Virus record (IMG/VR): IMGVR_UViG_3300032213_000182 | Location: 1 to 23,217 of that record | Length of the DNA stretch: 23,217 nucleotides | Direction: 5' to 3' (one strand) | From: a virus | Shown here: positions 5,168 to 7,171 of the stretch, in pieces | How positions within the stretch are numbered: the first letter of the stretch is position 1 | Layout: every line of letters starts with the position of its first letter | Made by a program: the position numbers and the translations under genes | The notes under the pieces: generated by a model | What the model saw: only the letters and a program-made list of their open reading frames with translations | Databases searched by the model: none | What the model was told of the DNA's origin: nothing

Positions 5168-5484
5168 GTACCGACCACATTGTCACCAGCACAAAGACTG
5201 GCAAATTCAAGTGCGAGTTCTGCGGAGCGGAGGAAGAGCCGCCCATCATGCCTGCACCCATCGACGTCATCATCGACGCAATGGATTTTTTTATGGACAA
5301 GCACAAAGATTGCAAACCACCACAAGCGGAGGCTGTTATGAGCGAATACATCAAGGGCTTTGACGCTGGCTATGCCTACGTCTTGAACGAGGTTGAGAAC
5401 TACATCAAGAGCGCCAACAGTCACGACGCGATGGTGCTGGTGCAGTTGCTCGCGCATCTCAAGATGGAAGGCAAACCTCAATGA
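5164..5484 (+). CDS. Hypothetical protein with zinc-binding N-terminus (possible fusion)
   Basis: This 106-aa protein has FKCEFCG (Cys17, Cys20) and MDKHKDCKPP (His47, Cys50), a likely CCHC zinc site separated by a PIMPAPIDVIIDAMDFF segment. A second part (about 59-106) begins MSEYIKGFDAGYAYVLNEVE and looks like an independent small phage protein. Internal ATG 5338 has GGAGG (5328-5332) five nt upstream, so the second part may also be made separately. ATGA overlaps occur at both ends. Function unknown; the zinc module is the best-supported feature. Confidence 0.7.
   Translation: MSTDHIVTSTKTGKFKCEFCGAEEEPPIMPAPIDVIIDAMDFFMDKHKDCKPPQAEAVMSEYIKGFDAGYAYVLNEVENYIKSANSHDAMVLVQLLAHLKMEGKPQ
5328..5340 (+). 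promoter_or_regulatory. Internal ribosome site and ATG inside 5164-5484
   Basis: GGAGG at 5328-5332 with ATG at 5338-5340 gives a well-spaced start for a 48-aa product in the same frame as the longer gene. It suggests either a fusion that has kept its old start, or an alternative short product. Confidence 0.4.
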
Positions 5485-6506
5485 GATTTGTTGAGTTGTT
5501 CGCAGGCATTGGTGGGTTCCGTCTGGGGTTAGAGCAGGCGGGTCACCAGTGCGTGTGGGCAAACGAAATATTAGAAAAACCAAGGAGGATTTATGCAAGA
5601 AACTTCGGGCATGAGCCAGACGCAAGAGACATTAGAACTGTTCAGCCTAACGACATCCCAGATGCAGAACTCCTCTGCGGCGGATTCCCGTGCGCGACTT
5701 TCAGCGTTGCTGGAAAGCGCTCTGGATTCTCGACAGAAGATACTCGCGGTACTCTCTTTTTTGAAATCTGTCGCGTTCTCAGAGACAAACGAATACCTTA
5801 TGTTTTCCTTGAAAATGTCAAAGGACTCCTCAACCACGATGGGGGAAGAACCTTTGCTGTCATCATCGCAAGTCTTGATGAATTGGGGTACGACGTTCAA
5901 TGGGAAGTTGTTAACAGCCAAAATTTCGGAGTCCCGCAAAACAGGGAGCGCGTATTCATTGTCGGACATCTTAGAGGACAACCCAGACCCCAAGTATTTC
6001 CTCTCGGAGTCTGCCTTTCAGAAGATGTTCACGAAACAACGCAAGGAGCGTCAAGCGAAGCAAGAGGAGGGGAACCCGAATCAAGCCGACCTATTCTGAT
6101 GCCCTTCGTCACAGGCAAGGTGATGCAATTCAAGGATGTGTTCCCAACGCTTGATGGTCATTACTGGAAGGGCATTCAAAACAATCAAGGGCGCGGTGCT
6201 GTGATGCAGGTGCGCCCAGTGCTAACGCCACACCGTGACACTAAGCGCCAGAACGGGCGTCGAGTCAAAGACCACAACGAGCCAGCGTTCACTCTCACGG
6301 CTCAAGACAGGCATGGAGTCATCGTAGGCGAACGCCTGCGCCGCCTGACACCACTGGAGTGCGAGCGCCTGCAAGGGTTACCCGACAACTTCACCAAATA
6401 TTACGACGACGGTTCATTGGTTAGCGACGCCGAGCGATACGAGCGTTGTGGTCGCACCGTCACTATCCCCGTCATCTACGAAATTGCAAAGAGGTTCCCA
6501 ACATGA
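5481..6506 (+). CDS. DNA cytosine-C5 methyltransferase
   Basis: This 341-aa enzyme of the Dcm/M.HhaI type should transfer a methyl group from SAM to cytosine C5, probably protecting phage DNA from restriction. Visible motifs: motif I ELFAGIGGF (5-13), catalytic PC in GGFPCATFSVAG (Cys71), ENV (111-113), motif VIII QNRERVFIVG (153-162), and a C-terminal GRTVTIPVIYEIAKRF motif X (324-339). The target-recognition region is about 165-285. All motifs are in one frame, so no frameshift is needed. The start overlaps the previous stop (ATGA). Residues 38-206 are overprinted by another ORF. No cognate restriction gene is visible. Confidence 0.93.
   Translation: MRFVELFAGIGGFRLGLEQAGHQCVWANEILEKPRRIYARNFGHEPDARDIRTVQPNDIPDAELLCGGFPCATFSVAGKRSGFSTEDTRGTLFFEICRVLRDKRIPYVFLENVKGLLNHDGGRTFAVIIASLDELGYDVQWEVVNSQNFGVPQNRERVFIVGHLRGQPRPQVFPLGVCLSEDVHETTQGASSEARGGEPESSRPILMPFVTGKVMQFKDVFPTLDGHYWKGIQNNQGRGAVMQVRPVLTPHRDTKRQNGRRVKDHNEPAFTLTAQDRHGVIVGERLRRLTPLECERLQGLPDNFTKYYDDGSLVSDAERYERCGRTVTIPVIYEIAKRFPT
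5582..5595 (+). promoter_or_regulatory. Strong Shine-Dalgarno inside the methyltransferase gene
   Basis: AAGGAGGA (5582-5589) with ATG at 5593-5595 is the best-matching ribosome site seen in the window. In the methyltransferase frame it is read as Pro-Arg-Arg-Ile, using tandem AGG AGG codons where most other Arg in that gene is CGN or AGA. It opens the +1 frame. Confidence 0.6.
5593..6099 (+). CDS. Overlapping +1-frame ORF within the cytosine methyltransferase gene
   Basis: This 168-aa frame lies fully inside the methyltransferase gene, starting at an ATG with a strong Shine-Dalgarno. The protein is Ser/Thr-rich with a hydrophilic N-terminus. Its C-terminal third holds GSAYSLSDILEDNPDPKYFL (about 118-137), then a basic KQRKERQAKQ tract and a terminal QADLF. 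I recall phage proteins with a SLSDILE...KYFLS core near Dcm-type genes, but cannot verify that they occur apart from such genes. Conservation of methyltransferase motif VIII could preserve this frame passively. QADLF resembles a bacterial sliding-clamp binding pentapeptide (QLxLF type). Start signal, length and family-like core favour expression; function unknown. Confidence 0.55.
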   Translation: MQETSGMSQTQETLELFSLTTSQMQNSSAADSRARLSALLESALDSRQKILAVLSFLKSVAFSETNEYLMFSLKMSKDSSTTMGEEPLLSSSQVLMNWGTTFNGKLLTAKISESRKTGSAYSLSDILEDNPDPKYFLSESAFQKMFTKQRKERQAKQEEGNPNQADLF

Positions 6507-7171
6507 AATCTTGGACTTTTGAATCAAAAGAAATTGCGGAGACATTTGACTCTCATGTGCGTGAGCAATTGCCGTGGTACGACATGGTCACTGATGCAGT
6601 TGTTTACATCGCAAGCAACTACATGACAAAAGGTTGCGTCATTACTGAGATTGGCGCATCAACAGGCAACATGACAAAGGCGCTGTTGCCAATATTTGTT
6701 GAGCGTGACGGGTGCAATTACCAAGCCATCGAGGTAAGTCCAATGATGTGCGATGTGTTCAACGCAAACATTCAACATCCGCTCGTTAGTTGCTGGGAGT
6801 CTGACATCCTTGAACTGGACATCAAGGGCGAAATTGATACATCTCATGTCACTATTTTGTTTTTGACTTTGATGTTCATTCCTGTCGAGGAGCGTGAGCG
6901 TTTGATGAAAAGGTTGCGCAAGAATTCGCATAAGGGAGGTTGCATCATTGTGGTTGATAAGGTGTTAGACCACGGCGGTTACTTTGCCACCGTCTTGAAG
7001 CGCCTTACCATGCATTTCAAATTAAAACAGGGGGCAAAACCAGAGGATGTGCTGTACAAAGAAATGAGCCTAGCGGGAGTGCAGATACCGATTGACCGAG
7101 CAATCTTAGGAAAGAACGCCAAGCAATTTTTTCGTATGGGTGAGTTTGCAGGGTGGGTAATTGAGACTTAG
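6503..7171 (+). CDS. Class I SAM-dependent methyltransferase
   Basis: This 222-aa protein has a Rossmann-type SAM-binding motif ITEIGASTGNM (about 47-57) followed by an acidic residue in YQAIEVSP (Glu77). The N-terminus SWTFESKEIAETFDSHVREQ looks like CmoA-like methyltransferases found in phages. A KGGCIIVVDKVLDHGGYF segment (about 144-161) probably belongs to the substrate-side core. The substrate is unknown: it could be nucleic acid, tRNA or a small molecule. The start at 6503 was preferred to 6446 because it overlaps the previous stop as ATGA and has GAGG at 6491-6494. It appears to be the last gene of cassette 1. Confidence 0.82.
   Translation: MKSWTFESKEIAETFDSHVREQLPWYDMVTDAVVYIASNYMTKGCVITEIGASTGNMTKALLPIFVERDGCNYQAIEVSPMMCDVFNANIQHPLVSCWESDILELDIKGEIDTSHVTILFLTLMFIPVEERERLMKRLRKNSHKGGCIIVVDKVLDHGGYFATVLKRLTMHFKLKQGAKPEDVLYKEMSLAGVQIPIDRAILGKNAKQFFRMGEFAGWVIET

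Follow-up and report, generated by a model that had tools for sequence, protein, structure and literature searches.

Does the long open frame inside the cytosine methyltransferase (MTase) gene of this virus encode a protein, and what would such a protein do beside the enzyme that surrounds it? The question is addressed here for the window, the whole 23,217-nt stretch of DNA analysed, and for the relatives of its MTase gene.

The nested frame and the surrounding gene

The window MTase is a C5-cytosine enzyme whose motifs I–VIII, variable region and motifs IX–X all lie in a single frame, with relatives that include enzymes of the M.HhaI/M.HaeIII type. The initial annotation had reported a 168-codon frame with an ATG at 5593 in the +1 frame of this gene, and it is located exactly there, with coding sequence at 5593–6096 and a stop at 6097–6099. 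Directly following the MTase gene and overlapping its end is a SAM-dependent-methyltransferase-like ORF at 6446–7171 (241 aa from a TTG). The features considered are:

5481..6506, + strand: C5-cytosine DNA methyltransferase, frame 0, 341 aa (PF00145, E 6.5e-79; phrog_116, E 1.4e-97)
5582..5588, + strand: Shine-Dalgarno (SD) sequence AAGGAGG of the nested gene, inside MTase codons 34–36 (sole AAGGAGG in the window; predicted duplex)
5593..6099, + strand: nested gene, phrog_16143 family, 168 aa (phrog_16143 match, codon-shuffle test, synonymous drop, dNN/dNS)
5593..5946, + strand: N-terminal two thirds of the nested protein, residues 1–118 (alignments; dNN/dNS over MTase codons 39–150)
5934..5966, + strand: MTase motif VIII (PQNRERVFIVG), frame 0 (sequence; invariant alignment columns)
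5947..6072, + strand: nested residues 119–160, SAYSLSDILEDNPDPKYFLS..., homologous to the linker between motif VIII and the target recognition domain (TRD) (nested-profile matches to frame-0 linkers)

The nested product matches phrog_16143 (E 1.7e-27, model positions 11–134 of 139), a profile matched by all 28 members of the nested-protein alignment. Searches of Pfam (including PF00145) and NCBIfam gave no match, and the protein lacks C5 MTase motifs I, IV, VI, VIII, IX and X despite its annotation as an MTase. No relative was found in the PDB by sequence. AlphaFold gives the nested protein no confident fold (mean pLDDT 54.8); its model of the window MTase is mostly confident over residues 1–176 and 287–341 and unreliable in the variable region. 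Both models were left out of all inference. Nested residues 1–118 overlap MTase codons 38–155, up to the start of motif VIII, and alignments show a conserved block in this part (WMNWGMTxNGxxLTAKISES). The DNA of motif VIII doubles as coding sequence for the start of the nested SLSD segment.

The internal start site

The initial annotation had drawn attention to a prominent SD sequence and to the unusual tandem AGG AGG codons that write it, and both observations hold. AAGGAGG occurs once in the window on either strand, 4 nt upstream of the nested start (ATTT-ATG), and its predicted duplex has an energy of −11.4 kcal/mol (shuffle P 0.01). The tandem codons encode Arg35–36 of the MTase; AGG accounts for 5 of the 34 Arg codons of this gene, two of them within the SD.

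Among 28 representatives, the nested ATG lies at MTase codon 38 in 22, and where it is missing there, an ATG stands at codon 47–51 instead. The Tyr38 codon supplies the AT of the nested ATG; it is TAT in 27/28 genes, compared with 141/240 at other Tyr positions (p 2e-5, a value that overstates the evidence because the rows are related). In genes that have the ATG, predicted SD pairing tends to be stronger than after shuffling; genes that lack it show no such tendency (p 4e-4). Loss of the SD among close relatives had been named as evidence against a gene; the SD is kept where the codon-38 ATG is kept and absent where the ATG is absent.

Selection on the nested protein

Fifty-nine MTases were fetched from viral contigs and about 50 were examined, at 49–93% identity. 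A long stop-free +1 stretch lies at the same place in every relative with an intact frame-0 reading, and no stops interrupt the overlap. The expected length of such a stretch was obtained by shuffling synonymous codons within each gene, which preserves both the MTase protein and its codon usage. The 174-codon open stretch of the window gene has P 0.022 against its own shuffles. The +1 stretch exceeds this null in 28/28 representatives (<90% identity), each at P ≤ 0.022 and mostly < 0.01, and the +2 frame of the same representatives shows no excess in length.

Synonymous sites in the MTase frame give a second line of evidence. Where relatives share an MTase amino acid, they also share its codon far more often within the overlap than in the rest of the gene, and this excess ends at the nested stop. 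Between nested start and stop, synonymous change in the enzyme's frame is about four-fold lower, the sharp, ORF-bounded drop over 5593–6099 that a true overlap would be expected to leave. Changes that are silent in the MTase and alter the nested protein (dSN) fall from 1.14 before the nested start to 0.31 inside and return to 1.41 after the stop. The ratio dNN/dNS, a measure of selection on the nested product that controls for the MTase, is 0.45 [0.37–0.56, bootstrap] inside the overlap versus 0.80 [0.65–1.00] downstream. It is 0.53 [0.40–0.72] upstream of motif VIII (MTase codons 39–150) and lowest at codons 131–150. These substitution counts are pairwise, from about 25 disjoint pairs rather than a full tree. 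Purifying selection thus acts along the whole nested protein, including the part upstream of motif VIII.

Similarity forced by methyltransferase motifs

Conserved motif DNA might force a similar +1 translation without any selection, a caution raised at the outset. It proved partly justified. Close relatives with shuffled codons still score about 30–106 bits against the nested profile, and conserved MTase motifs force much of the +1 similarity seen across phages. Forced similarity as a full explanation is, when quantified, insufficient. Most relatives outside the nested profile score 4–8 SD above the forced-similarity null, including Methanobacterium virus Drs3 (121 observed versus 65±11 bits under the null), Aquimarina L083 (102 versus 33±12), Caulobacter phage DMCA (50 versus 0±9), Mycobacterium phage Phoebus (55 versus 10±7) and phage P1 (29 versus −4±9). 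The P1-like loci L167, L170, L172 and L174 exceed the null by only about 2.5 SD, and the window gene, MM1 and 5093 score high by construction as members of the profile.

In a class-wide sample of bacterial MTases, 26 ordinary enzymes are at the null for both +1 length and score; loci with the nested frame stand out, all of them from genomes already found. C5 MTases in general therefore do not force such an ORF, and a subfamily does. With the open frame, the codon shuffles, the synonymous drop, dNN/dNS and the scores in excess of the null, the proposal of an overprinted gene is strongly supported, and the nested ORF is, with near certainty, a real gene under selection.

Distribution and existing annotation

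A scan with the nested alignment found one branch of the family on at least 327 viral contigs, and in 88/89 classified loci it occupies +1 of a C5 MTase gene. A second, P1-like branch, initially probed with a motif and later defined by real sequences, occurs on at least 592 viral contigs; both counts are lower bounds from pattern-based sampling. All 80 classified loci of the P1-like branch are nested in +1, 79 of them with a complete frame-0 enzyme, and its members include phage P1 dmt and Vibrio, Caulobacter, Mycobacterium, Cronobacter, Pectobacterium and Ruminococcus phages. The nested gene is carried by phages, prophages and plasmids. Besides P1 dmt, the nested arrangement occurs in the pneumococcal phages MM1 and SpSL1 and in the archaeal virus Drs3. 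In SpSL1, a phage in which the m5C MTase is active (PMC6755750), the nested ORF spans 165 codons against a null mean of 62, and 0/500 shuffles are as long.

No stand-alone copy of the nested gene appeared among 169 classified loci, which answers in the negative the proposed check for homologues outside MTase genes. The core that the initial annotation associated with phage proteins does occur in other phages, in nearly every inspected locus as +1 sequence within their C5 MTase genes and not as a separate gene. A stand-alone phage family with this core was considered and rejected, the core lying in the +1 frame of an MTase in all inspected loci except L077, where it is inside the MTase itself.

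Some records annotate the nested ORF, e.g. MM1p15/ORF14 of Streptococcus phage MM1 and gp40 of Streptococcus phage P0091. DQ113772 names the MM1 pair alpha and beta subunits, the nested ORF being the "C5 methyltransferase beta subunit". No paper describing the nested gene was found in the open-access literature. As far as could be found, the arrangement has been annotated here and there and apparently not explained before.

Origin of the C-terminal core

Ordinary C5 MTases have, in frame 0, a linker that joins motif VIII to the TRD, and the SLSDILEDNPDPKYFLS core is its homologue. The last ~45 positions of the nested profile match the frame-0 stretch directly 3′ of motif VIII in such enzymes: FAIKDILEENVDSKYTLSNHLWNYL in L276 (E 7.7e-8), FRDILERSPDEKYTLSDHLW in L278, PLSEILEKRVDKKYFASEY in L279 and KYFLSTQYVQTL in L274. 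The segment was first spotted by eye, and the matches come from searching frame-0 MTases with the nested profile, a small target set standing behind the E-values. Forced similarity cannot explain this match because different frames are involved.

A recognisable frame-0 linker is found in 0/178 nested-bearing MTases versus 12/43 without a window-class nested gene (p 7e-10); the latter fraction also means that the linker is not universal. The linker is the only MTase segment absent from the main chain that the window-type second polypeptide carries. The last third of the nested ORF is thus probably an old MTase segment now read in +1, as its homology suggests, and not newly invented; de novo overprinting seems to account for the N-terminal two thirds alone.

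In L077 (2323–4119), the MTase carries a DILEDNPDPKYNLSQKACEGILRRAALRGKTLP segment in frame 0, an apparent reversal of the nested arrangement. The linker is in frame 0, the +1 frame is full of stops, and the gene is sister (support 1.0) to L171, which has the linker in +1. The tree is built from motifs I–VIII, about 170 aa, and its deep branches are too weak to tell a single origin followed by losses from multiple origins.

Loci with a split enzyme

In 155 classified loci the frame-0 MTase already has motifs I–X and may therefore be active alone. Within the window family, motifs IX–X fall in the +1 ORF only in L060, L061 and L080 (recurring as L267/L270); in the window they sit in frame 0. In these split loci the MTase chain stops after motif VIII and the +1 ORF comprises the nested part, the linker and motifs IX–X. 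They could be frameshift mutants or assembly errors, and L080 comes from a low-coverage MAG. In Aquimarina genomes (L090, L269/L273), an MTase with the nested gene has motifs IX–X in the third frame; these are possibly decayed prophage copies.

A split architecture with motifs IX–X in the +1 ORF is common in the phrog_1008 genes of mycobacteriophages and of Arthrobacter and Paenibacillus phages. Mycobacterium phage Stasia (gp76/gp75, L180), Arthrobacter phage Colucci (gp82/83, L182) and Paenibacillus phage Rani (gp50/51, L181) have split C5 MTases in which frame 0 encodes motifs I–VIII and the +1 ORF motifs IX–X, with an overlap that starts far upstream; each pair is annotated as two DNA methylases. 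Joining phrog_1008 to the window family through the N-terminal parts was tried and rejected; the score is not clearly above the forced null, and phrog_1008 is therefore treated as a parallel architecture. A C5 MTase from a Bacteroidia genome (L295) has a 148-codon +1 open frame well above the null. Its +1 frame has no similarity to the window nested family, and the tree places the MTase among the split enzymes of the phrog_1008 class.

Proposed mechanism

The nested tail is a piece of MTase normally found in the enzyme's own chain, so that the product is probably a hidden helper part of the enzyme. The reading that we favour, with a little better than an even chance, is that it acts in trans as a second polypeptide of the MTase, comparable to the M.EcoHK31I small subunit. 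The nested gene would be translated from its own internal start (SD 5582–5588, ATG 5593) on the MTase mRNA. Its product would most likely dock on the catalytic domain of the MTase and, through its C-terminal part, supply in trans the linker missing from the main chain, and so be needed for, or tune, the activity or specificity of the enzyme. Translation in vivo, MTase binding and an effect on methylation are steps that we infer. The nested protein had initially been suggested to interact with the MTase or with host restriction: linker homology and the mutual exclusivity of frame-0 and nested linkers favour the former partner, as far as sequences can indicate, and the latter gained no support. 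The subunit reading also draws on the constant tie of the nested gene to an MTase, on the L077/L171 pair and on the split loci, whereas the low-confidence fold of the nested protein and the full motif set of the frame-0 enzyme in most loci count against it.

The arrangement may have evolved in several steps. A deletion and frameshift just 3′ of motif VIII would have moved the linker to +1; internal initiation and overprinting would then have given the nested N-terminal region; and frame 0 would have been overprinted in turn (HLRGxPRPxVFPLG) and rejoined to a TRD. The full account, in which a very old gene, widespread in bacterial and archaeal phages and overlooked inside P1 dmt, arose when an enzyme segment switched frame, gained a start and an overprinted N-terminal domain and now serves as a trans subunit, is offered tentatively and has somewhat less than an even chance of being right.

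Alternative explanations

The nested gene might instead be overprinted with a function of its own, e.g. shielding methylated phage DNA from methyl-dependent host restriction, or modulating the host, and be nested in the MTase because both are used together. Such a function would fit the selection seen along the entire nested protein, even at residues that have no relation to MTases, the full set of motifs in the frame-0 MTase of most loci, and the phages, prophages and plasmids that carry it. The lack of any stand-alone copy among the classified loci speaks against it, as does a C-terminus made of the very MTase segment that the main chain lacks, and neither Pfam nor NCBIfam gives a match that points to another function; this reading is rather unlikely, though it deserves serious weight. 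Programmed ribosomal frameshifting near motif VIII, yielding an MTase variant with the canonical linker (and with the C-terminal half in the split loci and the phrog_1008 phages), draws on the split loci and on the mycobacteriophage and Paenibacillus cases, where the enzyme is carried on in +1 past motif VIII. MTases are also listed among genes known to frameshift (PMC10885494). The strong +1 constraint upstream of motif VIII, however, argues against simple frameshifting, the internal ATG and SD are conserved, and a window-class product would end without a TRD and motifs IX–X. Frameshifting is therefore improbable.

It is least probable of all, to the point of being barely credible, that there is no gene, with MTase motifs forcing an open and similar +1 frame, or an RNA- or DNA-level element constraining synonymous sites. 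The bits that shuffled close family members retain against the nested profile are what such an explanation can draw on. Against it, length and score exceed the null in class-1 relatives, the ordinary C5 MTases show no excess, and the constraint begins and ends with the ORF and is specific to changes that alter the +1 protein.

Significance

In prokaryotes and their viruses, long overlaps between genes on one strand are difficult to prove, and for that reason few gain acceptance. The nested gene has strong support from sequence alone and is common in both branches. It implies that the phage P1 gene and many prophage MTase genes also code for a second protein that has been overlooked, and past MTase expression work may have co-expressed it unknowingly or destroyed it by codon optimisation. 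The movement of an enzyme segment between reading frames also becomes testable here.

Comparison with known systems

The nested gene combines known kinds of arrangement, overlapping genes and two-polypeptide C5 MTases. The frame-0 enzyme of the window is of the same kind as the canonical C5 MTases (M.HhaI and M.HaeIII type); these have no nested gene, and their linker, where recognisable, is in frame 0. MM1p15/ORF14, P0091 gp40 and phrog_16143 are the same +1 ORF at the same place, homologous to the window protein. MM1p15 and P0091 gp40 are labelled "DNA methyltransferase", although the protein is without MTase motifs, and no statement on selection or mechanism was found for these three entries. 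In phrog_1008 (Rani gp51, "g50 Internal gene", and Stasia gp75), as in the window, the +1 ORF overlaps the end of the N-terminal half of a C5 MTase at motif VIII; unlike in the window, it runs on into motifs IX–X, and the enzyme itself is split.

M.AquI and M.EcoHK31I are natural C5 MTases of two polypeptides, and complementation between M.SssI fragments is best if the C-terminal one begins in the interval from motif VIII to the TRD (PMC3404938). The proposed window system would likewise share C5 MTase function between two polypeptides, with M.EcoHK31I and M.AquI as the precedents (PMC3404938) and the window system known from its sequence. The small subunit carries motif IX in M.EcoHK31I and the distal variable region with motifs IX–X in M.AquI. 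The M.EcoHK31I subunit genes also overlap in different frames. The window nested protein differs from both small subunits in consisting of the linker and a novel N-terminal region, while its frame-0 chain keeps motifs I–X.
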